Positions 34,277 through 54,632 of a stretch of DNA of 64,000 nucleotides are shown piece by piece. Within the stretch, counting starts at the first letter, position 1. Every line of letters begins with the position of its first letter. The stretch covers positions 1-64,000 of the forward strand of contig JAGYKP010000077.1 of the NCBI GenBank assembly GCA_018401555.1, read 5' to 3'. This stretch comes from Halomonas sp. GTDB taxonomy: Bacteria > Pseudomonadota > Gammaproteobacteria > Pseudomonadales > Halomonadaceae. A program made the position numbers and the translations under genes. Below the pieces are notes generated by a model. It saw only the letters and a program-made list of their open reading frames with translations. It was not told where the DNA came from and did not search any database.

Positions 34277-34460
34277 GCTGGTGATCCTCTCGGAAATGGG
34301 AACCTGATGGCACAGCATAGGTCAGGAGCAGCCGTGTGTTCGCGCTTGCGACATAACGCCCCAGCGCGGTGGAGATTAATGCACCGCTAATCACCGGCTG
34401 TCAGGCTCTGCTCCTGGCGGCATGACCGCCGACGGATTCATCGGCAAGGAGCCTTTCCCC

Positions 34461-35281
34461 ATGCAGGCATTGAACCAGAGCATCGCCGTGGGTCCCATGG
34501 GATTCTCGATCGGCCAGCTGCTGATCATCCTGGCCTTCGGCATCGCCCTGTTGACCGGGGCGCTGATCGGCCGACGCCACCGCACGCCCACGGCCGACAC
34601 CCTCTTCAACCTGCTGCTGATCGCCCTGGTCGGCGCACGCCTGGTATTCGTGGTGCGCTACTGGGGCAGCTACGACGGCGTCCTTTCACTGCTGGACATC
34701 CGCGATGGCGGCTTCGACCCCCTGGGCGGCCTCGCAGCCGGCCTGGGCTATGCCACACCGGCGGCTGTGGCGCTCCCCGCCAGCGAGTGCCGCTGGGCGG
34801 CGCGCTGCTGGCCGGCGCCCTGACCTGGGGGCTGACCGCGGGCCCGCTGCTGTTGATGGAAGATCGCGGCCGCCCGCTTCCCGACACGCCCCTGACCACC
34901 CTGGCGGGAGAGGCCACCGACCTGCCGGGCCTGGCCGAGCGTCAGGGCCAGCCGCTGGTGGTCAACCTGTGGGCCACCTGGTGCCCGCCGTGCCGGCGCG
35001 AGATGCCGGTATTCGAGCAGGCCCAGGACGAGGCCAGCGACATCACCTTCGCCTTCGTCAACCAGGGCGAGGATGTGGCGCTGGTGAACCGCTTCCTCGA
35101 CGAGCAGTCTCTGGAACTGGACAACGTGCTGCTCGATGCGCGCACCGCCCTGGGTGACGTGACCGGCGCCATGGCCATGCCCACCACGCTTTTCTATGAC
35201 GCCGAGGGGCGTCTGGTGGATACCCACTTCGGCGAACTCTCCCACGCCACCCTGCGCCAGGGGCTGGAACGCCTGCGCTGA
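34461..35281 (+). CDS. TlpA-type thioredoxin with Lgt-like membrane N-terminus (frameshifted)
   Basis: The N-terminal half has membrane segments resembling prolipoprotein diacylglyceryl transferase (FGIALLTGALIGRR and GARLVFVVRYWGSYDG, then GGFDPLGGLAAG). The C-terminal half is a TlpA/thioredoxin domain with the active site WATWCPPCRREMPVFEQ and the cis-Pro loop AMPTTLFYDAEGR. Between 34745 and 34790 the frame changes, probably through two indels; RRLWRSPPAS in a third frame is the linker. The product is about 273 residues. AAGGAG before 34461 decides the start over the upstream ATG at 34422. It is a membrane-tethered periplasmic reductase and likely partners DsbG and PCu(A)C. Confidence 0.82.
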
Positions 35282-35340: not shown

Positions 35341-36102
35341 ATGCGACACCCACTCAAGTTACCGGCCATCGGCGCCCTGACCCTGGCCTTCGCGGCTCCC
35401 GCCCTGGCCAATGATGACCTGCCCGCCCCGGTGGCCGCCCTCACCGAGCAGGGCCTGACCATCCACGGCGAGTTCGAGGGCCCGGCCGGGCTGACCGGCT
35501 GCGGCGCCAGCCACCCCGCCGGCGAAGTGGCCATCTACCTGCTGCCGGGTGGCGAGCACGCCATCGTCGGCACCCTGGTCGATGCCAAGGGCAACAACCT
35601 CTCCGAGCCTGCACTGGACAAGCACGTGCGCGCCGCCCAGTTCGCCGAGGTGTGGCGGGACCTGGAGGCAAGCCACTGGATCGCTGATGGCGACCCCGAG
35701 GCCGAGCATGTCGTGTATACCTTTACCGACCCCAACTGCCCCTACTGCCGCCAGTTCTGGCACGACGCCCGCCCCTGGGTCGAAGCCGGCAAGGTGCAGC
35801 TGCGCCACATCATGATCGGCGTGCTGGCCTCGGACAGCCCGGCCAAGGCCGCCGCCCTGCTCGGCGCCGACGATCCCGCCGCCGCCCTCCACGCCCACAG
35901 TGGCGACGGCGAGGAGATCGAGGCCGGACCCCAGTCACGCGAGGTCGAGGAGCAGGTCTACGCCAACAACCAGCTGTTCGACTCGCTGGGCTTCATGGCC
36001 ACCCCGACCACCCTCTTCCGCAATGGCGACCGGGTCGATCGCATCGAGGGCGTGCCCAGCCCCGAGCGCCTCGAGGAGGCCATGGGCGGTCCGGCACCCT
36101 GA
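35341..36102 (+). CDS. dsbG: Thiol:disulfide interchange protein DsbG
   Basis: 253 residues with signal peptide (1-23, cleavage after ALA). An N-terminal dimerisation domain is followed by the thioredoxin fold with active site DPNCPYCRQFW (about 130-140); CPYC rather than CGYC points to DsbG over DsbC. The cis-Pro loop is ATPTTLFRNGDR (about 219-230). It protects single cysteines from sulfenylation and is reduced by a DsbD-like membrane protein, possibly the TlpA fusion upstream (60-base gap, same strand). Confidence 0.92.
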   Translation: MRHPLKLPAIGALTLAFAAPALANDDLPAPVAALTEQGLTIHGEFEGPAGLTGCGASHPAGEVAIYLLPGGEHAIVGTLVDAKGNNLSEPALDKHVRAAQFAEVWRDLEASHWIADGDPEAEHVVYTFTDPNCPYCRQFWHDARPWVEAGKVQLRHIMIGVLASDSPAKAAALLGADDPAAALHAHSGDGEEIEAGPQSREVEEQVYANNQLFDSLGFMATPTTLFRNGDRVDRIEGVPSPERLEEAMGGPAP

Positions 36103-36140
36103 GCGCAGTCGCCTTCCCGCCCACGCGGCTACTGACGAAA

Positions 36141-36174
36141 CAGGCCCCGCCCGGCAGCTGCCGGGCGGGGCCTG
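36141..36174. terminator. Strong bidirectional terminator
   Basis: A perfect 17-bp inverted repeat (36141-36157 with 36158-36174) beginning CAGGCCCCGCC, between convergent dsbG and tsdA. A short TTTCGTC follows on the tsdA side. Confidence 0.7.
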
Positions 36175-36210
36175 TCGATCTGGCGCCAGGTTACCGGCGC
36201 CGGGGGCGGA

Positions 36211-37249
36211 TCACTTCTCGACGTCGAGGTCCTCGAAGCGCGGCTGGCCGACGTTCCAGGGCTTGACCTCCTCGCCCTTCTCGCCCCAGTTGGCGTGGTC
36301 GGCGAGACGATGGCCATCGACCTCACGTTCCTGGCCGTAGCTGGAGTTCTTGTGGAAGGTCGGTCCGAACTTCTCCAGCACCTCGTCCACGCTGCCGGTG
36401 TAGCGCGGGTCCTGCGGGCGCTCCTGCTGGGTCATGTAGTAGGCGATGTCCCAGGCCTCCTGGTCGGAGAGCGACAGCGGCTGCCCCAGCGGCATGTTGT
36501 TCTTGATGAACCCGGCCGCGGTATGGGTGCGCACGATGCCGGCACCCCAGTTGTTGGAGCCGTCACCCCAGGGAGCGGGGAACACGTACTCGCCATCCTG
36601 GTAGAGGCCGGAGCCGTCCTCGCTGTGGCAGACCGCACAGTTCTCCACATAGAGCTGCTCGCCGTTGGCGTAGCTCAGTTCGTCGGGACGCTCCGGGGCC
36701 GGGAAGCCGCGGCCGTAGATGGGCTGGTCCGGATACACCGGGGCGCCCTTGGCCAGCCACTGGTGGTAGGCGAGAGAGCGCCAGCATGTCGTCGCTGCCA
36801 TACTCCGGCGGCGTACCGTTCATGGAGTAGGCGAAGCAACCGGCGATGCGCTCCTCGAGATTGTTGACGTGCTGGTTCTTGCCGCGGAAGTCCGGCAGGG
36901 TCACCGCCGCCGGCCACACCGGGGCGCTGAACGGCTGGCGACCTTCGCCCAGGTGGCAACTGGAGCAGTTCATGTCGTTGAAGACGTTCTTGCCACGCAG
37001 CTGCTGGGTGTTGGTGAAGAGGTCGTAACCACGGCGAATGACCGCCTTGGTTTCCGGCTTCATATCAGCGGCCTCGAGGTCCGCCATGGTGGGCGGCACA
37101 TGAACCAGCTCACCCTCCTGGGGGGCCGGATAGCCCATTTCCACCAGCTTGTCATAGGGATGGCCGTCGGTCTCTGCCCAGGCGGCCAGGCTTGCGCTGG
37201 CGGCCAGGGTCACACCGGCCAGTGCCAGCGTCTTCCTGTGCTTGATCAT
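36211..37249 (-). CDS. tsdA: Thiosulfate dehydrogenase TsdA, dihaem cytochrome c (frameshifted)
   Basis: Signal peptide (1-25). First haem at CSSCHLGEGR (about 94-103), second at CAVCHSEDGSG. The linking sequence RGKNQHVNNLEERIAGCFAY includes the Cys that serves as the unusual axial ligand in TsdA, followed by SMNG. WGAGIVRTHTAAGFIKNNMP and DQEAWDIAYYMTQQERPQDP also match TsdA. The frame breaks near 36777 (MLAL to LAYHQWLAKGAPVY). The repaired size is about 346 residues. It couples two thiosulfates to tetrathionate in the periplasm and follows tsdB by 13 bases. Confidence 0.93.
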
Positions 37250-37262
37250 TGTCTGTTCCCCC

Positions 37263-37912
37263 TTACTCGTCGGTCGCCGGCTGACTGGCCAGCCAGGCCG
37301 CCACGGCGGTGATGTCCTCGTCGCTCATGCGCTTGGCGATCGACCCCATCAGGTTCTGGGGTCGTTGGCACGACGACCCTCCTGCCAGGCGTGCAGCTGA
37401 TTCTCGATGTAGCCGGCATGCTGGCCGGCGATGCCCGGGAAGGTGCTGCCCACGCCCTGGTTGCCGGGGCCATGGCAGCTCTTGCAGGAGACGATGTACT
37501 CGTCCCAGTCGCCACGCAGGGCGAGTTGCTCGCCGCGCGCCAGTACTGCCTCGTCGGCGTCGCCGCCATCGGCTTCGGTGGCCGGCATCTGGCTGTAGTA
37601 GGCGGCCAGGTCGGCGATCGTCTGATCATCGAGCCCGTTGACGAAAGGCATCATGGTGGGTGCCTCGCGACTCCCATCCTTGACGTCGTGCAGCTGCTTG
37701 GCGAAGTAGTCTGCATCGAGCCCCGCCAGGCGCGGCCAGGATTCACCACCCGGCACGTTCATGCCACTGCCGTCGGCCTGGTGGCAGGCGACACAGGTCC
37801 CCGCGGCCTCCTCGCCACGCTGGGCGTCTCCCTCGAGCGCCACGGCCTGGCCGGCGGCCAGGCCGGCACCCAGCAGCAGGCCGAGCCCACTCAAGATCCT
37901 CTTGCTGGTCAT
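37263..37912 (-). CDS. tsdB: TsdB-like dihaem cytochrome c4-type protein (frameshifted)
   Basis: Signal peptide (1-25). Two c-type haem sites: CVACHQADGSG (about 40-50) and CKSCHGPGNQG (about 141-151), each followed by a Met-containing domain (TMMPFVNGL), the c4 pattern. A missing C near 37357-37366 breaks the frame; repaired, the tail reads QNLMGSIAKRMSDEDITAVA and ends at 37263. The size is about 216 residues. TsdB accepts electrons from TsdA and passes them to a terminal oxidase. It lies 46 bases after the histidine kinase on the same strand. Confidence 0.87.
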
Positions 37913-37958
37913 CGGTATTCCCCTCGTTTTGTCGTGGCCCCTCGGATGGGGCAGTCTC

Positions 37959-39297
37959 TCATTGCCCCTCCGGGGCAGTGCGATTCGCCTGTACCGGGAA
38001 GGTCAGGCGAGCCTCCAGCCCACCCCTCGCGGGACGGACAAATTTCAGGTCACCGCCGAAGCGCTCGGCGATGGCCACCACGATGGCCAGCCCCAGGCCG
38101 CTGCCGTGCTGCTTGCTGGCACGCCAGAAGCGTCTGGCCATCTGCTCCAGGGCTTCGTCATCGACGCCGGGCCCCTGGTCGATCACCCGGAATGTCAGGG
38201 TATTGTGGTCTTCGCACTCCACATCGAGGGTGACTCGTGACCCCTCGCCGCCGTGGCGGAGCGCATTGTCGATCAGGTTGCGCAGCGCGGTCACCGCCAG
38301 CTCCCGCGGCAACGCCAGGGGTGCCTCGGGCCACGCCTCGGGCAGTTCGAAGCGCGCGGTCGCTGCACCGCTGTCGCGCAGCGCCAGGGCCACCACATCG
38401 GCGGGGCGGCACGGGGTGCCGTCCTCGAAGGCCAGCCGGCCCTCCACCCGCGCCAGCATCAGCAGCTGGTCGAGTATCCGTGCCAGGCGCTCGACACCCT
38501 CCTCAGCGTAGCCGACGGCATCACGCGCCGCTTCGCCCTCTACCCGGCTGGCCACCTGCAGGTGGGTCTTGATGGCGGTGAGCGGCGTACGCAGCTCATG
38601 GGCGGCATCGTTGGTGAAGCGCTGCTCGCGCACGATGGCCTGCTGAACGCGGGCCAGCAGGCCGTTGAGGGTCTCCACCAGCGGGCGCAGCTCGCTGGGC
38701 ACCCCGTAGGTGGCCACCGGCGCCAGGGCATCCGGGTGACGACGCGCCAGGGAGTCACGCAGCCGGGCGATGGGCGACAGGCCGCGCACCACGCCGATCC
38801 ACAGCGCCACCAGGCTGCCCAGCATGGCTACCACGAAGGGCACCGTGGCCACCTTGATGACGTTGCCAAGCAGCAGGTCGCGCTCATCCATGCGGTCGGC
38901 GGTGGTGATGGTCAGCCCGCCCCGCTCGTAGGTGAATACCCGCCAGGTCACGCCGCCCTCTTCACGGTAGGCATGTCCGCCGACCTCGCCCACCGCCAGG
39001 ATCGACTCCAGGTCGGTGTGGGTACGCGCCATGATCTCGCCGCGCGGCGAGTGAGCCTGGCAGGCCAGCCCCTCGATGGGCAGGATCGACAGCGCCCGCC
39101 GGTCGGCCTCGAGCCACACATCCTGGGGCAGCTGCGCCATCCAGCCCCGCCACCATGCGCGCCGACTGGGCGAGCCGCTGGTCGAGGGTGGCCACGAACT
39201 GCTCCTCCAGATCGCGCAGCAGCCAGGCGGCGGCCAGCCCCCAGAGCAGCACCAGGGTGACCCCGAGGGTCACCAGCAGCCGCGTGCGCAGGCTCAC
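37959..39297 (-). CDS. QseC-type sensor histidine kinase (frameshifted)
   Basis: GTG start at 39297 overlaps the regulator stop (GTGA). First membrane segment about 6-26 (LLVTLGVTLVLLWGLAAAWL), periplasmic sensor of about 130 residues, second segment about 160-182, HAMP, then H box DAAHELRTPLTAIKTH, N box LIDNALRHG, and G boxes DQGPGVDD and GSGLGLAIV. The frame breaks near 39145-39150 in the sensor domain (MVAGL to MAQLPQDVW). The repaired size is about 446 residues. The sensor has one Cys (GLACQAHS). The signal is unknown; the operon suggests a thiosulfate- or redox-related cue. Confidence 0.9.
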
Positions 39298-39983
39298 GGA
39301 CGCTCCTTCTCGCCGGACTCGCCCAGCGGCGGTCCCGGCCAGTAGCCCAGCCCGCGCACCGTCTCGATCACCTCGCTGCCGAGCTTGCGGCGCAGGTGAT
39401 GGATATGCACGTTGAGGGCGTTGCTCTCCACATCCTCGCTCATGCCGTAGAGGCTGTCCTTGAGCTGGTCCGCCGAGAGCACGCTGCGCGGCGCCTGCAG
39501 GAAGGCCTCCAGCAGCACCAGCTCGCGGCGCGAGAGGGCCACCGGGCTGCCGCCGAGAGTAACTTCCCGGGCCACCGGGTCGAGGCACAGGGCGCCGTGC
39601 TCGATCAGCGGGTGCGAGCGCCCCGCCGCGCGCCGCAACAGCGCCTGCAGCCGGGCCACCAGCTCGTCGAGATCGAAGGGCTTGACCAGATAGTCGTCGG
39701 CACCGCCCTGCGGGCCGGCCACCCGGTCGCTGACCGCATCGCGGGCGGTCAGCACCAGCACCGGCGTGGTCACCCCGGCGTCGCGCCACTCCTCGAGCAG
39801 GCTCAGGCCATCACCGTCGGGCAGGCCGCGGTCGAGGATCACCACATCGCTGTCGACACTCTCCAGGGCGCGACGCGCCTCGGCAATGGAGGCCACGTGA
39901 TCGACGACATAATCGTGCACGGCGAGCCCGGCGCGAATGCCTGAGGCCACCAGGGCGTCATCCTCGATCAGCAGTACGTGCAT
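39294..39983 (-). CDS. OmpR/QseB-type response regulator
   Basis: 229 residues. Receiver domain with acidic pocket (IEDD, residues 6-9), phospho-acceptor Asp in ILDRGLPDGDG (residue 51) and Lys in LVKPFDL (about 102). C-terminal winged helix (about 125-220) with SRRELVLLEAFLQAPRSVLS and NALNVHIHHLRRKLGSE. The start at 39983 follows MHVLLIEDD. First gene of the operon regulator-kinase-tsdB-tsdA. Confidence 0.95.
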   Translation of the reverse strand: MHVLLIEDDALVASGIRAGLAVHDYVVDHVASIAEARRALESVDSDVVILDRGLPDGDGLSLLEEWRDAGVTTPVLVLTARDAVSDRVAGPQGGADDYLVKPFDLDELVARLQALLRRAAGRSHPLIEHGALCLDPVAREVTLGGSPVALSRRELVLLEAFLQAPRSVLSADQLKDSLYGMSEDVESNALNVHIHHLRRKLGSEVIETVRGLGYWPGPPLGESGEKERP

Positions 39984-40090
39984 GGCGTAAGGTCCTCTCG
40001 TTGTGCGACATCCTGTCACTGGGCCATTAAGCCTGCGTTAATCGCCATATGGATATAAGCAGGATGGCGGCATCCATTGGTCGTAGACAC

Positions 40091-40125
40091 AGACTCCCCC
40101 GCAGGCCGGGCCTGCGGGGGAGTCT
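40091..40125 (-). terminator. Terminator downstream of the YeeE pair
   Basis: Perfect 15-bp stem beginning AGACTCCCCCGCAGG with a 5-base loop CCGGG, 18 bases after the last YeeE stop. Confidence 0.7.
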
Positions 40126-40142
40126 CTTGATCGAGCACAAGT

Positions 40143-40556
40143 TCAGCTGCGCGCGGGAATCGCCCTGGCCAAGAACCAGCCGGCGACCATTGCCACCAGC
40201 ATCGCCACCAGCGGTACGCTGGGCCCGGCGATGGAGGCGATGGCCGGCCCCGGGCAGTAGCCGGAGAGCCCCCAGCCGATGCCGAACAGAGCCGAGCCGC
40301 CGATCAGCCGCCCATCGAGATCCTGGCGGGTAGGCAGCTGGAAGGCCTCGCCGTAGACCGGGGCCGTGCGCTTGAAGGCGAGGCGGTAGCCGATGAAGTT
40401 GGTCACCACGGCACCGCCGAGCACGAACATCAGGGTCGGGTCCCAGGCGCCGGCAAGGTCGAGGAAGCCGAGCACCCGCGCAGGGTCGGTCATGCCGGAG
40501 ACGGCAAGCCCCAGGCCGAACAACAGTCCGGCGATATAGCCCATCAGCGTCTTCAT
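40143..40556 (-). CDS. YeeE/YedE family protein, second half (DUF6691)
   Basis: 137 residues with four membrane segments. [20 protein letters not shown] (about 15-34) and [18 protein letters not shown] (about 93-110) are the two signature loops; the Cys in GYCPGPA is conserved in this transporter family. Together with the preceding half-size partner it makes a split YeeE-like protein. E. coli YeeE (TsuA) imports thiosulfate; split pairs are often next to sulfide-oxidation genes, as here. The ATGA overlap couples it to its partner. Confidence 0.9.
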
Positions 40557-41016
40557 GCGCCACCTCCGATCACGTGCCGAACCACGAACACGGTGATGAT
40601 CGCCATCACCAGGAAGGTGAGGGTCGCCACCAGCGAGCGCGGCGAGAGCCTGGCCAGGCCACAGACGCCGTGGCCGCTGGTGCAGCCGCTGCCCAGGCCG
40701 GTGCCCAGGCCCACCAGCAGGCCGGCAACCAGCATCAGCAGCACGCCACCGGCGGGCTCGCCAATGACCTCTCGCCGGCGGCACCCGCCACATTGCCCAG
40801 GCCGCCGCCCAGCAGCATCACCACGATGGGGCCGCTGATCATGCCGAGCAGGAAGGTCACGCGCCAGGCGCTGTCACCCTTCGGCCGGGCGGTGATCAGG
40901 GTGCCGATGATGCCGCTGATGCCGGCGATACGGCCCAGGGTGGCCATCAGCCAGGTGGCGGACAGGCCGATCAGCACGCCGCCGGCCAGCCCTTGCAGGG
41001 ATGAACTCCAGTCCAC
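40553..41016 (-). CDS. YeeE/YedE family protein, first half (frameshifted)
   Basis: GTG start at 41016 with AGGAG eight bases upstream. Membrane segments begin [19 protein letters not shown]; the signature loop [20 protein letters not shown] carries the conserved Cys pair. One frameshift near 40768-40775 (GERSLA to EVIGEPAGG) splits it. The repaired size is about 153 residues. It is the upstream partner of the DUF6691 gene. Role: probable thiosulfate or sulfur-compound uptake, inferred from family and context. Confidence 0.88.
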
Positions 41017-41044
41017 GCTTTTTTCTCCTATCGTCTCGATACTG

Positions 41045-41062
41045 ATTTGGTTAACTTCAAAT
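41045..41062. promoter_or_regulatory. AT-rich imperfect palindrome upstream of the YeeE pair
   Basis: ATTTG-GTTAACTT-CAAAT: matching 5-base arms with a GTTAAC centre, in otherwise GC-rich DNA, 29 bases before the GTG start. It is a candidate operator or promoter. Confidence 0.4.
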
Positions 41063-41206
41063 ACTCGGGGCTGACCCGGTGGCAAGCCTGCGAGGAGGCG
41101 CTGTGAATACCTCCATGTACGCTACCGACGCCATCCCTGGCGTAGGACCTCCTCTTCGGCTTGCCCCCGGCGCCCCTCGCTGGCTGTTATCGCTGCGGCC
41201 CTGCCG

Positions 41207-43015
41207 TCAGGGCATCCGCGGATGCGGTGCCTCGTCGTCGAACGTCGCGCCCGGCATGGCGCCCATCTGCATCTCGGCGCAGCGCCGCGACAGGCGACCA
41301 TCGCCGAAGCCGCGCAGCTCCTGCCAGGCATCGAAGGTACTGAGGAACACCTTGCCGGTCATCTCGTGGCAGAACTCGGTGTGCTGCAGGCGATCCATCA
41401 CCGGGCCCTTCACCTCGGCCAGGTGGAGGCGCACGCCGGAGTCCCTGAGGCGCGCGTTGATAGCCTCCAGACTCTCCAGCGCCGAGGCGTCGATGACGTT
41501 GACCGCCTGGCAGGCCAGCACGATGTGCTCGAGGCGCGGCTGGCGGGCGGCCAGTTCCATCACGGTGTCTTCCAGGTAGCGCGCATTGGCGAAGTAGAGA
41601 CTCTCGTCGACCCGCAGGATCGCCAGGCGTTCGTCGGTCTCCACCCGGTGGCGCTGCACGTTGCGAAAGTGCTCGGTACCGGGCACCCGCCCGACCACGG
41701 CACTGTGAGGGCGGCTGGTACGGTAGAGATGCAGCGCCAGCGACAGCCCTACGCCGACCATGATACCGCTCTCCACGCCATGGCCCAGGGTGACAGCGAT
41801 GGTGGCCAGCATGGCGGCGAAGTCGCCGCGTGAATAGTCCCAGGTGCGCTTGATCGCCGCGAAGTCGACCAGCGACAGCACCGCCACGATGATGGTGGCC
41901 GCCAGCGTCGCGATCGGCAGGTGGGCGATCAGCGGGGTGAGCAGCAGCGCGGCCACGCCGATCCCCACCGCGGTAAAGGCGCCGGCGGCCGGGGTCTCGG
42001 CGCCGGCGTCGAAGTTGACTACCGAGCGCGAGAAGCCGCCGGTCACCGGCATGCCGCCGGTCAGCGAGGCGGCGATGTTGGAGGTGCCCAGGCCCACCAG
42101 CTCCTGGTCGGGGTCGATACGTTGGCGGCGCTTGGCGGCCAGGGTCTGGCCCACCGACACCGATTCCACGAAGCCGACGATGCTGATCAGCAGCGCCGCC
42201 ACGAACAGCTGGCTCCACAGGCCGCTGTCGAAGCCGGGCAGGGTCAGCGGCGGCAGGCCACGGCAGGCACCGCGCCGACCACCGCCACGCCGTGCTGGTC
42301 CAGTCCCAGCCCCCAGCTGGCCAGGGTGGTGGCCGCCACGGCGAGGATCGGCGCCGCCTTGGTGAGCATGTCCGCCGGGCGCGACGGTACCCCGAGCCGG
42401 ACGCAGGGTGGGCTTGAGCCAACGCCGCGCGACGTAAAGGAAGGCCAGCACCCCGAGGCCGATCACCAGGGTGGGCAGGTTGACGCTGCCCAGCTGGCTG
42501 CCCAGCCCGATCAACAGCTCCAGCAGGTTGTGGCCGCTCGCCTCGACGCCCAGCACATGCTTGAGCTGACTGGCGGCGATGATCAGCCCCGAGGCGGTGA
42601 TGAACCCTGAGATCACCGGGTGGCTAAGGAAGTTGGCCAGAAAGCCCAGCCGAGCTACCCCCATCAGGGTCAGGATCAACGCGGACATCAACGCCAGCAC
42701 CAGGGCCGCACCGAGATACTCCGGCGTGCCCTGGGGTGCCACCTGCCCCACCGCTGCCGCCGTCATCAGCGACACCACCGCCACCGGCCCCACGGCCAGG
42801 GTGCGACTGGTGCCGAACACCGCATAGACCACCAGCGGTGTGATGCTGGCGTAGAGCCCCACCTCGGGTGGCAGCCCGGCCAGCATGGCGTAGGCCAGCG
42901 ACTGCGGGATCAGCATGATGGTGACGATCACCGCCGCCAGCAGGTCGCTGGCCAGGGTGGCTCTATCATAGCCGGGCAGCCACTGCAGGATCGGCAGATA
43001 GCGTTTCGGGTTCAT
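41207..43015 (-). CDS. SulP family anion permease with STAS domain (compensating frameshifts)
   Basis: N-terminal SulP transporter of about ten segments: LIPQSLAYAMLAGLPPEVGL (about 36-55) is the family signature, with GFIT near 140 and SVSVGQTLAAKRRQ later. The C-terminal STAS domain (about 450-570) has RVDESLYFANARYLED and VNVIDASALESLEAIN. Two indels near 42405 and 42260 cancel each other: repaired, the interval reads MLTKAAPILAVAATTLASWG, a membrane segment, while the given frame is a Gly/Arg-rich nonsense stretch. The size is about 602 residues. It transports sulfate or a related oxyanion, here likely sulfite/sulfate from persulfide oxidation. It follows the DUF442 gene by one base. Confidence 0.9.
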   Translation of the reverse strand: MNPKRYLPILQWLPGYDRATLASDLLAAVIVTIMLIPQSLAYAMLAGLPPEVGLYASITPLVVYAVFGTSRTLAVGPVAVVSLMTAAAVGQVAPQGTPEYLGAALVLALMSALILTLMGVARLGFLANFLSHPVISGFITASGLIIAASQLKHVLGVEASGHNLLELLIGLGSQLGSVNLPTLVIGLGVLAFLYVARRWLKPTLRPARGTVAPGGHAHQGGADPRRGGHHPGQLGAGTGPARRGGGRRGACRGLPPLTLPGFDSGLWSQLFVAALLISIVGFVESVSVGQTLAAKRRQRIDPDQELVGLGTSNIAASLTGGMPVTGGFSRSVVNFDAGAETPAAGAFTAVGIGVAALLLTPLIAHLPIATLAATIIVAVLSLVDFAAIKRTWDYSRGDFAAMLATIAVTLGHGVESGIMVGVGLSLALHLYRTSRPHSAVVGRVPGTEHFRNVQRHRVETDERLAILRVDESLYFANARYLEDTVMELAARQPRLEHIVLACQAVNVIDASALESLEAINARLRDSGVRLHLAEVKGPVMDRLQHTEFCHEMTGKVFLSTFDAWQELRGFGDGRLSRRCAEMQMGAMPGATFDDEAPHPRMP

Positions 43016-43016
43016 C

Positions 43017-43451
43017 TCAACGCTGCCCGGCGGCGGCTTCCAGTAGCGGGCGCCGCTCCTCGAGATCATGCCCCGCAGCATGGGCCGCGGCCAGCAGCGC
43101 CGGGATATCACAGCTCTCTCCCTGGCTGCGAGCATGGGCCCACAGGTGAACGGCGCGCTTGCCGGTCTTGCAGAAGGCCAGGATCGGCGTTCGCAGTGTC
43201 TCCAGCGCCTCGCCGAAGGCGGCGATGTCAGCGGCGTCATACTGCCCCGGGGTCACCGGAATGCAGCGCCACTCGAGGCCGAGCTCGGCGGCGCGGGCCT
43301 TGAGGGGACGGTCGTCGGGATGGTCCTCGGCCTCGCCGGGGCGGCGGTTGCAGATCACCGAGCGGAAGCCGCGACGGGCGACCTCGTCGAGATCGGCCGG
43401 ACTGACCGCGTCGGTGATGGCGAAGCCGGGTTCGAGCTGATGAATCTGCAT
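43017..43451 (-). CDS. DUF442/Blh N-terminal-like phosphatase-fold protein
   Basis: 144 residues of the TIGR01244 / beta-lactamase-hydrolase-like family: GFAITDAVSPADLDEVARRG (about 9-28), SVICNRRPGEAEDHP, and the P-loop FCKTGKRAVHLWA (about 93-105). Related proteins have CxTGxR; this copy has Lys at two positions. In other bacteria this domain is fused to a persulfide dioxygenase (Blh), and here it is a separate gene between one and SulP. A sulfurtransferase role with glutathione persulfide is the current view of such fusions. Confidence 0.87.
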   Translation of the reverse strand: MQIHQLEPGFAITDAVSPADLDEVARRGFRSVICNRRPGEAEDHPDDRPLKARAAELGLEWRCIPVTPGQYDAADIAAFGEALETLRTPILAFCKTGKRAVHLWAHARSQGESCDIPALLAAAHAAGHDLEERRPLLEAAAGQR

Positions 43452-43471
43452 ATCGACTGACTCCTGAGCCT

Positions 43472-44338
43472 TCAGAACTTGTTGATCGGGACCTTGAGGT
43501 AGACCTGACCGTTATCCTCGGCGGGCGGCATCTGGCCGGCACGCATGTTGACCTGCACCGAAGGAATGATCAGCCTCGGCATGCCGAGAGTGGCATCACG
43601 CTCGGTGCGCATCTTGACGAACTCCTCCTCGCCGATGCCCTCGTGGACATGGACGTTGTGGGCACGCTGCTCGGCCACCGTGGTCTCGTGCTGGTACTCC
43701 TCGCGCTCCGGCGCCTTGTAGTCGTGACACAGGAAGAGGCGTGTCTCGTCGGGCAGCACCAGCACCTTCTGGATGGAGCGGTAGAGGGCGCGGGCATCGC
43801 CGCCCGGGAAGTCGCAGCGCGCGGTGCCGTAGTCGGGCATGAACAGGGTGTCACCGACGAAGGCGGCATCGCCGATCACGTAGGTCAGGCAGGCCGGCGT
43901 ATGGCCCGGAGTGTGCAGCACTCGCCCTTCCAGGTTGCCGATGGCAAAGGTGTCGCCCTCCTCGAAGAGGCGGTCGAACTGGCTGCCGTCCCGGGCGAAC
44001 TCGGTGCCGGCGTTGAAAGCCTTGCCGAAGACGTCCTGGACCACGGTGATGTTGGCGCCGATGCCGGTCTTGCCGCCCAGCTTCTCGTGCAGGTAGGGCG
44101 CGGCGGAGAGGTGGTCGGCGTGAACGTGGGTCTCGAGGATCCACTCCACCTCGAGGTCGTTGTCACGCACGAAGGCGATGATCTCGTCGGCGGAGCGCAC
44201 GTCGGTGCGCCCGGCGGCATAGTCGAAGTCGAGCACCGAGTCGAGGATCGCGCAGGCGCGGCTCGCGGGATCCTGCACCACGTAGCTGAAGGTGTTGGTG
44301 GGCTCGTCGAAGAAAGGGGTCACGATTGGCTGGGACAT
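43472..44338 (-). CDS. Persulfide dioxygenase-like MBL fold hydrolase (ETHE1/Blh group)
   Basis: 288 residues from the ATG at 44338 (GGAGG nine bases upstream; an earlier TTG is possible). Metal site THVHADHL (about 71-78), HTPGHTPACLTYVIGD (about 137-152) with the third His, GDTLFMPDYGTARCDFPGGD (about 157-176), and the late LCHDY. The DYG-ARCDF segment is typical of ETHE1-like persulfide dioxygenases, which oxidise glutathione persulfide to sulfite with a mononuclear iron. First gene of an operon with DUF442 and SulP. Confidence 0.9.
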   Translation of the reverse strand: MSQPIVTPFFDEPTNTFSYVVQDPASRACAILDSVLDFDYAAGRTDVRSADEIIAFVRDNDLEVEWILETHVHADHLSAAPYLHEKLGGKTGIGANITVVQDVFGKAFNAGTEFARDGSQFDRLFEEGDTFAIGNLEGRVLHTPGHTPACLTYVIGDAAFVGDTLFMPDYGTARCDFPGGDARALYRSIQKVLVLPDETRLFLCHDYKAPEREEYQHETTVAEQRAHNVHVHEGIGEEEFVKMRTERDATLGMPRLIIPSVQVNMRAGQMPPAEDNGQVYLKVPINKF

Positions 44339-44399
44339 GGGAAACAACCTCCATCGGATGTCGCTGGCCGAAGCATGGAGACAGCATAGCCGAAAACAG

Positions 44400-44415
44400 G
44401 TTCTAAGAATAGAAT
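44400..44415. promoter_or_regulatory. Candidate operator upstream of the first MBL operon
   Basis: GTTC-TAAGAATA-GAAT resembles the ATTC-N8-GAAT site of the persulfide sensor SqrR/BigR group, with one mismatch. The surrounding AT-rich stretch to about 44430 stands out against the GC-rich host. No ArsR-family regulator is encoded in the window. Confidence 0.35.
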
Positions 44416-44454
44416 ATTTGGCTATATAAAGGTCTGGACTACCCTCCTCACGGC

Positions 44455-44487
44455 ACGAGCCCCGACGGCAGGGCCTGCGGGGCTCGT
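44455..44487. terminator. Hairpin downstream of the second MBL gene
   Basis: ACGAGCCCCG (44455-44464) pairs with CGGGGCTCGT (44478-44487), loop 13 bases. TTTT follows on the plus strand; the gene itself is on the minus strand and ends 20 bases away. Confidence 0.55.
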
Positions 44488-44506
44488 TTTCCAGTACGGC
44501 CGGGGA

Positions 44507-45420
44507 TTACTCCCAGGCTGCCCCCTCCAGGGCATCCAGCGGGATCTTAAGGTAGCGCTTGCCGTTGGCCTCCGGCTCCGGCAGGCGACCGCCGCGGGTG
44601 TTTACCTGGAGCGAGTGCAGGATCAACTTGGGCATGGGCAGTTCGCTGTCGCGCTGGTCGCGCATTGCCGCGTAGTCATCCTCGGTGACGCCGCCGGCCA
44701 GGTGCTTGTTGGTCTCGCGCTGCTCGCGCACCGTACTCTCCCACTGCGGCTCGCGACCGTCGGGCATGTAGTCGTGGCCGGTGAACAGCCGGGTGTCGTC
44801 GGGCAGCGCCAGGATCGCCTGGATGGAGCGCCACAGCTGGTGGGCATCGCCGCCGGGGAAGTCGGCCCGGGCGGTGCCGAAGTCCGGCTGGAAGAGGGTG
44901 TCGTGGACGAAGGCCGCATCGCCCACCACGTAGGTGATCGAGGCCAGGGTGTGCCCGGGAGAGAACATCACCCGCACTTCCAGTTCGCCGATGGCGAAGG
45001 TATCACCCTCGGCGAAGAGCCGATCCCACTGGGAGCCATCGGCGGGGAAGTCGGGCCAGTGGTAGATCTCCTTCCACAGCTTCTGCACCTCCACCACCTT
45101 CTCGCCGATGGCGGTGGGCGCCCCGGTCTGCTCGCTCAGGTATTGCGCCGCCGAGAAGTGGTCGGCATGGGGATGGGTGTCGAGGATCCACTCCACCTCC
45201 AACCCCTTCTCCTTCACATAGGTGAGCAGCTCATCGGCATGGTGACTGGCGGTGGCGCCCGGACTTCTCGTCGAAGTCATACACCGGATCGATGATGGCG
45301 CACTTGCCGGTGGCCGGGTCGCTGACCACGTACTGGATGGAGAAGGTACGCGGGTCGAAGAAGCCGGCGACCTCAGGGCTGACGGCACCGGTGCTGGGCG
45401 AGAGGGCAAAGGTCTGCATG
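44507..45420 (-). CDS. Second persulfide dioxygenase-like MBL fold hydrolase (frameshifted)
   Basis: About 304 residues after repair. Metal site THPHADHFSAAQYL, FSPGHTLASITYVVGD, HDTLFQPDFGTARADFPGGD and FTGHDYMPDGREPQ match the ETHE1/Blh-like group and parallel the neighbour gene, to which it is clearly related but not a recent copy. The frame breaks near 45257-45265 (DFDEKSG to ATASHHADELL), so the N-terminus MQTFALSPSTGAVSPEVAGF lies in another frame; the start is at 45420. Its own promoter region is AT-rich. The two MBL enzymes could differ in substrate (glutathione versus other persulfides). Confidence 0.9.
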
Positions 45421-45465
45421 GGGATACCTCCGATAGCGTATTGCGGTGAGTCGACCACCAATTGC

Positions 45466-45502
45466 TTTATATGGAATAAGCTTATCTTAAAATGAACTAT
45501 AT
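45466..45502. promoter_or_regulatory. AT-rich promoter/operator region upstream of the second MBL gene
   Basis: It contains the perfect palindrome ATAAGCTTAT (45476-45485) flanked by TATAT on both sides. It lies 46-82 bases before the start and is far below the local GC content. A promoter and regulator site is likely; the regulator is unknown. Confidence 0.4.
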
Positions 45503-45570
45503 GACGATTGTGCCACTGCATGGGGCCGATAGCCTTTCCGCGACAACCTCCCGCGCGGGAGGCCACCAAC

Positions 45571-45608
45571 GCACGGCGCCCGCGACCTGAAGGCCGCGGG
45601 CGCCGTGC
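45571..45608 (-). terminator. Terminator of the rhodanese/DsrE/DUF2892 operon
   Basis: Perfect 14-bp stem GCACGGCGCCCGCG / CGCGGGCGCCGTGC with a 10-base loop, 28 bases after the DUF2892 stop. A further palindrome CCTCCCGCGCGGGAGG is at 45548. Confidence 0.7.
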
Positions 45609-45636
45609 ATCGATAGCCGGCCGTGGCCGACGGTGA

Positions 45637-45828
45637 CTATTTCTTCAGCTTGCAGGTATTCACGCCCAGCAGCTTGTAGGCCGGGCAGAAGTTGAACAGG
45701 CCGGTGGCCAGCGGCACCACGCCGATCCAGCCCCAGGCACCGATGGTGCCGGTCAATGCCAGCAGGATCAGCACGATGCCGACCACGATACGGGCAATCC
45801 TGTCGATACCACCCACGTTACGGGTCAT
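45637..45828 (-). CDS. DUF2892 family small membrane protein (YgaP membrane-domain-like)
   Basis: 63 residues. MTRNVGGIDRIARIVVGIVL opens the DUF2892 family; two membrane segments (about 9-28 and 31-48), then NFCPAYKLLGVNTCKLKK with two cysteines (about 49 and 59), as in the membrane part of E. coli YgaP, a rhodanese. Here the rhodanese and membrane parts are separate genes in the same operon. The second Cys is conserved. Possible role: anchoring or sulfur transfer at the membrane. Confidence 0.88.
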   Translation of the reverse strand: MTRNVGGIDRIARIVVGIVLILLALTGTIGAWGWIGVVPLATGLFNFCPAYKLLGVNTCKLKK

Positions 45829-45868
45829 GGCGTTCTCCTCGATGCTTGGACGCAAGAGTTGCTTGGAT

Positions 45869-46357
45869 TCAGAAGGTGAAGACCGGAACGGACGGGTCAC
45901 GCATCAGTTCGGCGATCGGCCCCGGAGCCGCGACACCCACGCCATCCAGCAGCACTTCCTGGCCATAATCGCGGTTGGGCAGGTAGATGGCACAGACGTC
46001 TACCTGGGCGCCATTACCCATCAGCATCTGCATGATGCCCTCGGGCGTCACCTGACCGGCCGGGTTGCTTGGCGGGGTGTTGATGGGCTGGGCGCTCTGA
46101 TAGCCCTCCACCGCCAGGTCACCGGCCTGGTCACACAGCAACAGCTGCAGGTCAGTGCCCTGCTGCTGCATGGCATTGGCGAGGATCATGGCCATGCCCT
46201 GGGTCTCCAGGGAGTCGCTGGTCAGGATCATCAGTGCCTTGTCGCCGGCGGCCTTGTCACCCTCGGCCTCGCCACCGTGATTGTCCGCCAGGGCACTGGC
46301 GCCGAAGGCAATGGCACCCGTGGCCAGCGCCACACTCAGGGTCGTCTTGAAACTCAT
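45869..46357 (-). CDS. Periplasmic DsrE-like protein
   Basis: 162 residues with a signal peptide (1-23, cleavage after ALA). The mature part fits the DsrE fold: ALMILTSDSLETQGMAMILANA, LLLCDQAGDLAVEG with one Cys, VTPEGIMQMLMGNGAQVDVCAIYLPN in pieces with the second Cys (the usual active-site position), and a C-terminal PGPIAELMRDPSVPVFTF. DsrE/TusD-family proteins carry persulfide sulfur on a Cys; a periplasmic version is less common. Middle gene of rhodanese-DsrE-DUF2892. Confidence 0.85.
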   Translation of the reverse strand: MSFKTTLSVALATGAIAFGASALADNHGGEAEGDKAAGDKALMILTSDSLETQGMAMILANAMQQQGTDLQLLLCDQAGDLAVEGYQSAQPINTPPSNPAGQVTPEGIMQMLMGNGAQVDVCAIYLPNRDYGQEVLLDGVGVAAPGPIAELMRDPSVPVFTF

Positions 46358-46466
46358 GGGCCTCTCCTTGCTTGGGTCGAAGACTTGCGTGGAAATCTCT
46401 TGGCGGAAACGTCTTGCCCGGAAGCGCAGGGAGGCCACCGGCCCCACCCGCGTGCCGCTCATCGGG

Positions 46467-47057
46467 CTACTCGGCGGGCTGCCAGGCAACCTCGGGGTCG
46501 ATCTCGTAGCTCCACGGCAGGCCGGAGTTGCGCCAACCGTTTACGGCGCGCACGCCCTTCGAGTCGCCCTCCTCGAGCTTGCCGCCCTCGAAGCCATCGG
46601 TCACCGAGTAGACCTGGCTGAAGCCCATCTCGGCGATGGCATCGGCGGCGGGGGCGCTGCGCGTGGAACCCGAGCGGCACATGACGATGATCGGGTCATC
46701 CTCGGCCACCCCCAGCGCCTCGAGCTCGGCGCGCATCTGGGTGTCAAAGTCGGTGTTCTTGACCATCGGCCAGCTCTTCGCCTCGGCATTGAAGCTGTCG
46801 CGATCGGCCAGCACCCAGGGCACGTGGATGTCGGTGGGCTCGGCGAAGCCGGTGAACTTGATCTCTATCGGGTCGCGCACGTCGATCAGCACGGCCCGGT
46901 CGTTCTCCTGCATCAGCTCCCATGCCTCGGCGGCGTTGACGTAGAGCCCGAGCGACGTCTCGCGATAGGCCTCGGCCTCCTCGGCGAGGGCCGGCCCGCT
47001 GGCCAGCATGGCTGCCATGACAGAGCCGGCCAGCAGGGTCTTCATCGCTGCTTTCAT
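46467..47057 (-). CDS. Periplasmic rhodanese-like sulfurtransferase
   Basis: 196 residues with a signal peptide (1-25, cleavage after ALA). Rhodanese motifs: LIDVRDPIEIKFTG (about 57-70) and the active loop VMCRSGSTRSA (about 126-136) with nucleophile Cys, then a C-terminal GFEGGKLEEGDSKGVRAVNG. AGAGGAAG precedes the start. It likely moves sulfane sulfur from thiosulfate or persulfide in the periplasm, and pairs with the DsrE protein downstream (109-base gap). Confidence 0.9.
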   Translation of the reverse strand: MKAAMKTLLAGSVMAAMLASGPALAEEAEAYRETSLGLYVNAAEAWELMQENDRAVLIDVRDPIEIKFTGFAEPTDIHVPWVLADRDSFNAEAKSWPMVKNTDFDTQMRAELEALGVAEDDPIIVMCRSGSTRSAPAADAIAEMGFSQVYSVTDGFEGGKLEEGDSKGVRAVNGWRNSGLPWSYEIDPEVAWQPAE

Positions 47058-47264
47058 AACCACTTCCTCTAAAACTATGACATAACTCGACGTTAATCCC
47101 AGCGTAGTCCAGAAGCGGCCGCGCCGGCATGAGACATGTGGCCGCACCTTGATATGCATCAACAGAAAGGCAGCCCTCGGGCGCGGGACAACGTGCCGCA
47201 GCCACGGCGTGTGCGAAACGGGCATCATGCACCGAGGTCAACGACACCACTGGCGGAGACGCGC

Positions 47265-47891
47265 ATGTCCAGAATCTGGCAATGGATCACTCTGCCCTAC
47301 CGGCGCTACCCCATGATTACCGGCATCCTGGTGCCCCTGGCACTGGTGGCGGCCTTCATGCTCGCGCCCGGCCTGATGGAACCGCCGCCGGAGGCGGTGG
47401 ACCCGCTGGGTCGTACGGCGCTGACCCTGGCGGCCGAGAACGGCGAGACCGAGCGGGTACTGGCGATGCTCGACGCTGGCACCGCGATGGATGCCAGCGA
47501 CCGCTGTGGGTGGACGGCACTGATGAAGGCAGCCGCCAACGGCCATCTGGAGATGCTCGAGGCACTGCTGGCCCGCGGTGCCGACACCGAGCACCGCGAC
47601 CAGGCTGGCTACACGCCACTGCTGGTGGCCGTGGTCAACAACCAGGCGGCCACCAGCCAGGCACTGCTCGCCGCCGGCGCCGATGTCGATGCCGTGGATG
47701 ACGAGGCGGGCTGGTCGAGCCTGACATGGGCCGCCAAGGATGGACGCCCGGAGCTGGTCGAGCTGCTGCTGGAGCATGGTGGCGACCCCACCCATGTGGC
47801 GGGCGACGGCACCACGCCGCTGCACTGGGCGCGGGAGAATGGCCACACGGAGATCGTCTCGCGCCTGGAAGCCGCCGGCGCCGGCGAATAG
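47265..47891 (+). CDS. Membrane-anchored ankyrin repeat protein
   Basis: 208 residues. One membrane segment (about 17-37, PMITGILVPLALVAAFMLAPGL), then about five ankyrin repeats (GRTALTLAAENGETERVLAM, GWTALMKAAANGHLEMLEAL, and so on to GTTPLHWARENGHTEIVSRL). The repeats face the periplasm if the N-terminus is inside. Ankyrin proteins of this kind often partner catalase or sulfur enzymes, but the partner here is unknown. It is divergent from the rhodanese operon. The start is ATG 47265 with GGAG upstream. Confidence 0.88.
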   Translation: MSRIWQWITLPYRRYPMITGILVPLALVAAFMLAPGLMEPPPEAVDPLGRTALTLAAENGETERVLAMLDAGTAMDASDRCGWTALMKAAANGHLEMLEALLARGADTEHRDQAGYTPLLVAVVNNQAATSQALLAAGADVDAVDDEAGWSSLTWAAKDGRPELVELLLEHGGDPTHVAGDGTTPLHWARENGHTEIVSRLEAAGAGE

Positions 47892-47897
47892 CCCGTC

Positions 47898-48869
47898 TCA
47901 GGCCGGTTCGGCCGGCCCGAACAGGCGATCCGAGAAGCGCACGTACCAGGCCGCGGACTGCACCTGGATGATATAGGCCAGGGCGATCAGCAGGGCGGCG
48001 TCGGTTCCGGCCTCGCCGAAGGCGTTCATGGCCAGCGCCAGGGCGATGGAGAGGTTGCGCATCACCGTGCCGTAGACCAGGGCGATGCCGTCGCCGCGCG
48101 AGAGCCAGGCCCGGGCCGCCAGGGTGCTGATCAGGTAGTTGACGGCGTAGAGGATCAGCAGCGGCACGGCGATATCCAGCAGCAGCCCGGGGCTGGCCAG
48201 CAGGTCATCGGCCTTGAGCGCCATGGCCACGAAGACGATGCCCAGCACCCCCAGGGTGGAGAGCGGTGGAAAGCGCGGCGCCCACTGCTTGCGGAAGCCC
48301 TCGGCGCCATGACGCTTGATAAGGAAGTGTCGCGTGAGCTGGCCGGCCAGCATGGGAATGCCGACCACCAGGATGATCTGACGGAACACCGCCACCAGGT
48401 CCACCGGGATGGCAGCCCCCATCAGCCATTTCACGTAGAGCGGCGTGGCAAGCGACCCCAGGATCAGCCCGACCACGGTCATCTTCACCGCCGCCGGCAG
48501 GTTGCCCTTGGCGAAGCCGGTCCAGGAGATGGTCATGCCGCTGGTCGGCAGTAGCGCCGCCAGCAGCAGCCCCAGCGCCAGGTAGGGCTGATCGGCAAAC
48601 CACCACAGGCCCAGGCCGAAGGCGATAAAGGGGATCACCGCGAAATTGATCAGCTGCGCGAGTCCCTGGGCGCGGCCGTCGCCGCCCATCAGCAGCTCAC
48701 GCAGGCGCAGGTTGACCATCATCGGGTAGATCATCAGCAGCGTCAGCGGTATCACCAGTGCCGAGAGCCAGGCCACTGGCGCGACGGCCCCGAAGGCCAG
48801 CCCCAGCAGCAGGGTCACCGGTATCGCCACCACCAGATTACGCGTCAGCGCCTGGATCACGCCCATCAT
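47898..48869 (-). CDS. Bile acid:sodium symporter / arsenite permease-like (BASS superfamily) transporter
   Basis: 323 residues with ten membrane segments. LTLLMIYPMMVNLRLREL (about 42-59), LLPTSGMTISWTGFAKGNLP and VVGIPMLAGQLTR are shared with ACR3-like and BASS proteins. The Cys of ACR3 arsenite exporters is absent from the segment 4 region (GMTISWT), so arsenite transport is doubtful. Similar genes occur beside sulfur-oxidation loci; sulfur-compound transport is possible. Convergent with the ankyrin gene (6 bases apart). Confidence 0.83.
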   Translation of the reverse strand: MMGVIQALTRNLVVAIPVTLLLGLAFGAVAPVAWLSALVIPLTLLMIYPMMVNLRLRELLMGGDGRAQGLAQLINFAVIPFIAFGLGLWWFADQPYLALGLLLAALLPTSGMTISWTGFAKGNLPAAVKMTVVGLILGSLATPLYVKWLMGAAIPVDLVAVFRQIILVVGIPMLAGQLTRHFLIKRHGAEGFRKQWAPRFPPLSTLGVLGIVFVAMALKADDLLASPGLLLDIAVPLLILYAVNYLISTLAARAWLSRGDGIALVYGTVMRNLSIALALAMNAFGEAGTDAALLIALAYIIQVQSAAWYVRFSDRLFGPAEPA

Positions 48870-53112: not shown

Positions 53113-53170
53113 GGGATCACCTCCGTGTGTGATCGAGCTGAGCGATCGTGGGGTCTGGCAGCAGTCTAGC

Positions 53171-54608: not shown

Positions 54609-54632
54609 CTGCTGCTCCGCATGTCGTACACC

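Follow-up and report, generated by a model that had tools for sequence, protein, structure and literature searches.

Among the closest described relatives of the locus reported here is the thiosulfate dehydrogenase region of Halomonas. According to the passages of PMC9237845 that deal with this region, nine Halomonas genomes are alike in the order tsdB-tsdA and in an upstream gene for a QseB-type regulator; a kinase gene is present in five of the nine, DsbG, in six genomes a thioredoxin gene, and rib genes lie downstream, and soxH-like genes occur near some tsdB copies. The same passages report that H. titanicae SOB56 makes tetrathionate, that thiosulfate induces its tsdA and tsdB and that the SOB56 enzyme could not be produced, and they propose quorum sensing for the tsd-linked QseBC-like system; YeeE is not named in them, and they contain no mention of a kinase cysteine, of regulatory boxes or of DUF442/SulP/YeeE or DsrE units. 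Here we analyse an island of sulfur genes (36211-47891) in a 64,000-nucleotide stretch of Halomonas DNA (this whole stretch is called the window), which is the start of contig C1 in an assembly (G000) of 3.25 Mb and 106 contigs, rated 77% complete. In this island tsdBA and a two-component system stand beside persulfide genes, and our preferred explanation, to which we assign a probability of roughly 0.6, is that two sulfur modules of known types became neighbours in Halomonadaceae.

Several other described systems resemble parts of the island, as far as the published passages cited here go. The bigR operon of Xylella and Agrobacterium (PMC5823870) pairs a DUF442 sulfurtransferase with an ETHE1-like dioxygenase, both families being found here too, and the two activities are coupled in Blh (PMC5823870); in our locus, however, DUF442 and both metallo-beta-lactamase-fold (MBL) proteins are separate, the island has neither BigR nor TauE, and SulP is present instead. 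The yeeE-yedE-pdo2 operon of Acinetobacter and Serratia (PMC7315123) likewise combines a YeeE/YedE pair with a persulfide dioxygenase (PDO) and is, in Acinetobacter, a BigR-controlled sulfur detoxification operon, whereas here no BigR gene is adjacent and the genes are joined to tsdBA and a two-component system. Sulfur import by YeeE and SoxT is the subject of PMC11073785 and PMC11582611. ThsSR and TtrSR of Shewanella (PMC5408782) are two-component systems for thiosulfate or tetrathionate that lie beside sulfur redox genes, as does ours; the search in that work targeted PhnD-like sensor domains, while the Halomonas kinase has about 80 residues between its helices and one cysteine. DsrE3A of Metallosphaera (PMC4175335), a DsrE family member with two conserved cysteines like the Halomonas protein, accepts thiosulfate groups from tetrathionate and is paired with TusA, whereas the Halomonas DsrE-like protein has, by eye, a signal peptide, with no TusA match on its contig. 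A literature search combining tsdA, QseB and two-component system returned PMC9237845 alone, and no cysteine-based thiosulfate or tetrathionate kinase sensor linked to tsdA was found among the ten papers listed of 66 that matched, as judged from titles and the beginnings of abstracts.

The first of the two modules consists, on the minus strand, of genes for an OmpR/QseB-type response regulator (39294..39983) and a QseC-like histidine kinase (37959..39297), both recognised by profile search, followed by tsdB (37266..37912) and tsdA (36211..37249). Judging by their spacing, the four genes would form one operon, and tsdBA with its QseBC-like two-component system is a separate operon that is partly published (PMC9237845). 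Profile searches find a SoxA-TsdA cytochrome domain and a cytochrome c domain in TsdA, and two cytochrome c stretches in TsdB, its dihaem partner. TsdA has two CxxCH haem sites, a cysteine axial ligand and the methionine ligand region, seen in both reading frames of the broken window gene; the haem motifs, the cysteine ligand (RIAGCFAYSMNG) and an NNMPLG motif are conserved in an alignment of nine relatives (A2), and the enzyme should join thiosulfates to tetrathionate. Four loci (L013, L030, L126 and L127) carry at this position another, more remotely related type of TsdA, with an identity of about 44-49%, which looks like an in-place replacement of tsdA.

The second module, also on the minus strand, comprises MBL1-DUF442-SulP, a YeeE pair, MBL2, and a group made up of an exported rhodanese, a DsrE-fold protein and a DUF2892 protein. 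MBL1 (43472..44335) is of persulfide dioxygenase type: it lies near the solved structures 4ysk and 9g8t and matches 4ysk, presumably the PDO of P. putida, with 399 bits over residues 5-286. MBL2 (44507..45421), about 53% identical to MBL1, is a stand-alone relative of the Blh dioxygenase domain, its G052 orthologue scoring 557 bits against the Blh profile NF040641, short of the 625 bits for bifunctional Blh and over the dioxygenase part only. The HxHxDH, PGHT and DT motifs of MBL1 are invariant in eight aligned proteins. The stand-alone DUF442 sulfurtransferase (43017..43451) matches BLH_phosphatase and, above its cut-off, TIGR01244; SulP (41207..43015) is a permease with a STAS domain, and the YeeE/YedE transporter is split into a first half (40556..41016), whose Sulf_transp match is weak (19.8 bits in the G052 orthologue, below the cut-off of 27), and a DUF6691 half (40143..40556) found by profile search. 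Both MBL proteins match Lactamase_B, and profiles also identify the rhodanese (46467..47057, CRSGSTRSA loop, exported by eye) and a YgaP-like transmembrane protein (DUF2892; 45637..45828). Group II PDO is reported in 204 of 206 Halomonas genomes in the relevant part of PMC8014003, and MBL1, DUF442, SulP and YeeE together are, from their families, best regarded as a persulfide module of known type. No ArsR-type repressor gene, such as would mark a BigR-controlled operon, lies beside these genes; the four HTH_5 matches of the genome are all off contig C1, the nearest BigR-like relative being on contig C3. As MBL1, MBL2 and DUF442 have no signal peptide by eye, the wholly periplasmic relay proposed in the sequence-only reading of this DNA cannot be kept.

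That the two modules are neighbours rather than parts of one unit is seen best in the gene order of relatives. Judged by MBL1, the named species most closely related belong to Halomonas and Billgrantia; the island of H. halodenitrificans DSM 735 (L050) is closely similar, and the closest of the compared genomes, G052, has a DNA identity of about 90-95%. We anchored 80 loci on MBL1; 29 of them bear Halomonadaceae names and enter the family tallies, and the 51 others were tallied apart. Contigs that end early were kept, so that the counts are lower bounds. Across the comparisons, some named loci and some genomes represent one species (for example L010/L130, L019/L132 and L085/L140), L047 and L118 also looking alike. 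Among the 29, YeeE1 accompanies MBL1 in 25, DsbG in 21, SulP in 14, the regulator in 14 (two of them divergent), tsdA in 12, DsrE in 10, rhodanese in 5 and MBL2 in 3; among the 51, SulP does so in 36, YeeE1 in 7, an MBL2-like gene in 3, DsrE in 2 and a tsdA-like gene in 1. This TsdA type was found in 19 of 101 family genomes, and 15 neighbourhoods were fetched beside the window: six have MBL1 and YeeE beside tsdBA, eight have neither MBL1 nor YeeE, and one (L127) has MBL2 and the two-component system but neither MBL1 nor YeeE. The two-component system occurs without tsdBA in L011, and tsdBA without an adjacent two-component system in L030 and L117; the sister island of G052 has no rhodanese and no DsrE. 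Vreelandella loci run MBL1-YeeE1-YeeE2, and the borders of the island are fairly constant, with dsbG on one side and an RNase-like MBL gene on the other. The order recurs with island proteins that are mostly 60-95% identical, so the co-localisation assumed in the sequence-only reading is not due to chance; its expectation that the operons co-occur across Halomonadaceae was borne out, although the modules are gained and lost independently. By these comparisons the neighbourhood is conserved but modular.

Outside this setting the persulfide genes often have other partners. A gene for sulfide:quinone oxidoreductase (SQR) directly follows MBL1-DUF442 in 15 of the 80 loci, either as a separate gene (for instance in L010/L130) or, in Arhodomonas (L085:10899-12638), as an SQR-like domain in one chain with DUF442; an ArsR gene is present in 13 of 80, and L078 has the order ArsR-YeeE-DUF2892-MBL1-DUF442-SQR-SulP. 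Neither SQR nor ArsR is encoded in the window. With H. cerina SQR as the query and a limit of E 0.001, G000, G052 and G099 remained without a match (the positive control G092 was matched with its own copy), and flavocytochrome c sulfide dehydrogenase (FCSD) was not found in the same three genomes (the positive control G039 was matched), which fits a thiosulfate or sulfane source rather than sulfide. In these species persulfide may thus arise from thiosulfate, polysulfide or thiols rather than through SQR, a view that depends on the reach of the search.

The kinase has a feature newly described here, namely a lone cysteine in its sensor part. It stands at position 79 in the homologues and is the only periplasmic cysteine in all 20 that were aligned, two divergent ones (L016 and L132) included, and the kinase fragment of the window carries it as well. 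In six genomes, a search recovered five near homologues, all with the cysteine (three of these are repeats), and 16 paralogues with identities no higher than 40%, of which not one has a cysteine in the first 150 residues as read; L002 was left out because of an out-of-frame reading, and the paralogue readings of L160 and L166 may start late. For the L050 kinase, a structure predicted from residues 1-185 (mean predicted local distance difference test (pLDDT) 82, predicted template-modelling score 0.61) places the cysteine on the first strand of the segment of about 80 residues that links two long helices. Conservation of this residue suggests direct sensing of sulfur compounds by the kinase. 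Even in loci that have no tsdBA (L011 and L177), the regulator and kinase genes face dsbG and tlpA tail to tail.

A second feature is a tandem TTAAC-N6-TTAAT box (40026..40041, minus strand), about 43 bases before the start codon of the regulator. Its pattern has a single match in the window and none in 100 shuffles, a stricter version has one exact match in the whole assembly, again at this place, and a box precedes the regulator in 18 of 21 loci; we regard it as a probable autoregulatory operator. It resembles what we take to be a PmrA-type box, and a literature search on a PmrA/QseB box found no paper. A weaker box, TTAAT-N6-CTAAT (34373..34398, plus strand), lies about 49 bases before tlpA, the first of two plus-strand genes convergent to the tsdBA operon: tlpA (34422..35281) encodes a membrane-anchored TlpA-like thioredoxin with a CPPC motif and dsbG (35341..36102), convergent to tsdA, a DsbG-like thiol oxidoreductase with CPYC. 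We scored upstream regions with a profile from the 18 regulator sites, counting 6 or more as a match; the dsbG upstream region was taken where tlpA was not found, and L118 and L119 were dropped for too little sequence. The second box is present in six of seven Halomonas/Billgrantia loci with the two-component system (the window, L011, L013, L017, L050 and L115; the exception, L014, scores 2.3), in none of eight other loci with the system (Vreelandella-type loci and L127) and in none of 17 loci without the system or with another one; L017 has the second box and lacks the regulator box. The background was 5 matches in 493 control upstream regions, two before rhodanese (L014 and the window), two before DUF2892 and one before tsdB. 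The window site at 47074-47099, about 31 bases before rhodanese, is weak (7.5 on the 18-base profile); that of L014 scores 10.1, and the other eight rhodanese loci all remain below 6. In the 100 bases upstream, no box was found at this threshold before YeeE1 (0/47), MBL1 (0/95) or SulP (0/61), nor before MBL2 in the regions tested.

Inverted repeats lie between the gene groups of the island and are likely to split it into separate transcription units. A perfect 18-nt repeat (36140..36175) separates the 3' ends of tsdA and dsbG and a perfect 17-nt repeat (40091..40125) the YeeE genes from regulator-kinase-tsdBA, while imperfect ones stand between MBL2 and MBL1 (44455..44487) and after the rhodanese-DsrE-DUF2892 genes (45556..45623). 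The groups are accordingly rhodanese-DsrE-DUF2892; MBL2; MBL1-DUF442-SulP, a dispersed repeat and the YeeE pair; regulator-kinase-tsdB-tsdA; and convergent dsbG. A scan for sigma-70 promoters found 1 against 1.2 expected, and one for terminator-like sites 6 against 3.0. Control of the whole island by the two-component system was considered and rejected, since boxes were found at its own operon, at tlpA-dsbG and, weakly and in two loci, at rhodanese, and none at MBL1, SulP or YeeE. Some co-regulation across the island seems possible, given the like box before tlpA-dsbG and the weak one before rhodanese in the window and L014, and a common regulator is suggested only for tsdBA, tlpA-dsbG and, weakly, rhodanese.

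The DsrE-like protein (45869..46357, minus strand) begins with what looks by eye like a signal peptide, and an alignment of 13 sequences has 28 invariant columns, among them Cys75 and Cys122. The AlphaFold model of the protein (mean pLDDT 77.5, about 90 over most of residues 41-162) gave 13 Foldseek matches with E up to 0.001, the best being YchN 1jx7 (E 4e-7), DsrE 3pnx and DsrEFH 2hy5, which places it in the DsrE/DsrF fold. No profile matched it in Pfam (E up to 0.1) or NCBIfam (E up to 0.001), a sequence search for a solved relative gave nothing meaningful, and its contig has no TusA match. On the strength of the model, it represents an exported DsrE/YchN-fold family without a Pfam or NCBIfam name; by analogy, one may guess that it binds tetrathionate or polysulfide in the periplasm. 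The gene is present in 14 of 101 Halomonadaceae genomes and was not found anywhere in G052. Besides the copies of the own genome, G039 and G099, 10 further neighbourhoods were fetched (G073 was left out), of which eight have MBL1-SulP-YeeE and two have an ArsR gene, DsrE and SBF instead. In these two (L138 and L139, from G051 and G013) the DsrE-like gene is directly followed by an SBF symporter gene, divergent from a BigR-like ArsR gene, and L138 has multihaem cytochrome genes beyond. Class-wide, a match was found in 9 of 369 genomes, the own included, and eight neighbourhoods were fetched: L142 reads MBL1-YeeE1-YeeE2-SulP-DsrE-DUF442 with an ArsR gene nearby, L140 (on the contig of L085) has rhodanese-like, exporter, MBL1 and DUF442-SQR genes near DsrE, L141 has a rhodanese-like gene, and the remaining five have none of these genes beside DsrE.

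Beyond rhodanese lie an ankyrin-repeat gene (47136-47891), whose product has, judged by eye, a membrane segment close to the N-terminus, and an SBF-type symporter gene (47898..48869, minus strand), a possible extra member of the island that adjoins DsrE in two other genera. The ankyrin gene is on the plus strand, also in L011, where SBF again lies near rhodanese-DsrE as in the window. The sequence-only reading, which had put all genes on the minus strand, was thus mistaken for this one; its families are all present in the order it gave, the DsrE label being right by fold only. The genes are present, but comparison with intact orthologues shows broken frames in tsdA (near 36.77 kb), tsdB (near 37.36 kb), the kinase (near 39.14 kb), the first YeeE half (near 40.78 kb) and MBL2 (near 45.26 kb), and a short, locally shifted stretch in SulP. 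Further breaks, seen against several Halomonas genomes, lie outside the island at about 34.8 kb (in tlpA, near 34.76 kb) and at about 52-54 and 56 kb (within 52000-56700), and such frequent breaks suggest a low-quality or uncorrected assembly. Because breaks also occur outside the island, the G052 copies of the disrupted genes are all open and the assembly is rated 77% complete, the island breaks are tentatively read as assembly errors rather than decay; a pseudogene island was judged less likely on the same grounds. Between SulP and YeeE sits a copy of a dispersed palindromic intergenic repeat (41063-41184, about 117 bases), found at 80-97% identity in at least 37 other places of the assembly among the 40 candidates scored out of 485; a single DNA strand of this copy is predicted to fold stably (z -4.1), and the gap is much shorter in the sister G052. 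No Rfam element reached gathering scores within 33.0-50.5 kb.

How the two modules might work can be outlined from their families. In the first, TsdA would make tetrathionate from two thiosulfates in the periplasm, with TsdB as the onward carrier of the electrons. Taken together, the lone conserved cysteine in the periplasmic part of the kinase, both boxes and the order of the genes lead us to infer that this residue probably lets the kinase respond to thiol-reactive sulfur, and that tlpA-dsbG, the convergent operon, is probably a further target of the regulator; the products of that operon would keep single periplasmic thiols reduced, perhaps that of the kinase. The idea that the pair is a new kind of sulfur sensor, in which tetrathionate, polysulfide or thiosulfate chemistry modifies the cysteine and so sets the kinase, and TlpA/DsbG, under the same regulator through the second box, reset it, is tentative, and we rate it somewhat below even odds. 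In the second module sulfane sulfur would either be captured outside or enter through the YeeE pair; DUF442 would pass it to a low-molecular-weight thiol, the persulfide dioxygenases would convert the persulfide to sulfite, and SulP, perhaps also SBF, would move the anion, with no direction implied. The families are evident, and the order of steps is our conjecture.

A number of observations weigh against this picture. The kinase cysteine and the boxes are conserved features with predicted functions only. In L016/L019 the cysteine is present in a more divergent kinase without tsdBA, and since the regulator-kinase pair occurs without tsdBA in L011 and L177, tsdBA was not necessarily the ancestral target of that pair. 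No box precedes the regulator in L016, L017 and L019, L177 has no box at all, and Vreelandella-type loci lack the second box; the threshold and locus groups were, moreover, set after the scores had been seen, which makes the second box a lead and not a test. For G000, the absence of SQR and FCSD is judged from an assembly that is 77% complete; other SQR types could escape the search, and in the relevant part of PMC8014003 H. halodenitrificans is among the species with SQR or FCSD.

One could suppose instead that the whole island encodes one co-regulated pathway leading from thiosulfate and persulfide on to sulfite and sulfate, run by the two-component system. On one hand, MBL1, YeeE and tsdBA are adjacent in both Halomonas and Vreelandella, the tested SQR type and FCSD were not found in three near genomes, and weak boxes precede rhodanese in the window and L014. 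On the other hand, no box at the threshold used precedes YeeE1, MBL1 or SulP, the units are separated by inverted repeats, and modules are independently gained and lost; also, we know of no MBL enzyme for which tetrathionate, made outside, is a direct substrate. We thus consider the single pathway unlikely, and the coherent unit suggested in the sequence-only reading is not supported, as modules come and go, inverted repeats split the units, and MBL1, MBL2, SulP and YeeE lack boxes at that threshold. The opposite extreme, sulfur genes gathered by chance in a permissive spot with no functional ties, would suit the turnover of modules between fairly constant borders; it is nevertheless highly improbable, for subsets of the same genes (YeeE, DUF2892, MBL1, DUF442, SulP and DsrE) cluster in other genera too, some with SQR or ArsR (L078, L085 and L142).

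The two-component system could also be a true QseBC quorum-sensing relay controlling thiosulfate oxidation, as the idea in PMC9237845 would have it. The best named NCBIfam match of the kinase, taken from the G052 orthologue, is indeed QseC (NF007664), but its 187.5 bits are far below the curated cut-off of 475; the lone sensor cysteine is conserved and missing from the 16 paralogues, and dsbG/tlpA adjoin the kinase genes and in Halomonas carry a like box. A quorum-sensing relay seems very unlikely to us, and two known-type modules that became neighbours remain our preferred explanation.

The island is thus made up of ordinary sulfur families in a conserved, modular neighbourhood that is partly in print; new here are the kinase cysteine, the tandem TTAA box before the regulator operon and, weaker, before tlpA-dsbG, and the exported DsrE fold. 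The locus joins a persulfide-detoxification module, elsewhere often found with an SQR or ArsR gene, to a thiosulfate dehydrogenase, and genes of the exported DsrE-fold family adjoin persulfide dioxygenase genes in the majority of the Halomonadaceae carrying them, as well as in a few further genera. If the proposed sensor is real, one thiol switch would tune both periplasmic thiol repair and thiosulfate oxidation. As to how heterotrophs like Halomonas sense thiosulfate or tetrathionate, the printed suggestion is quorum sensing; the cysteine and the box suggest another answer, and the lone sensor cysteine makes this alternative testable at one residue.

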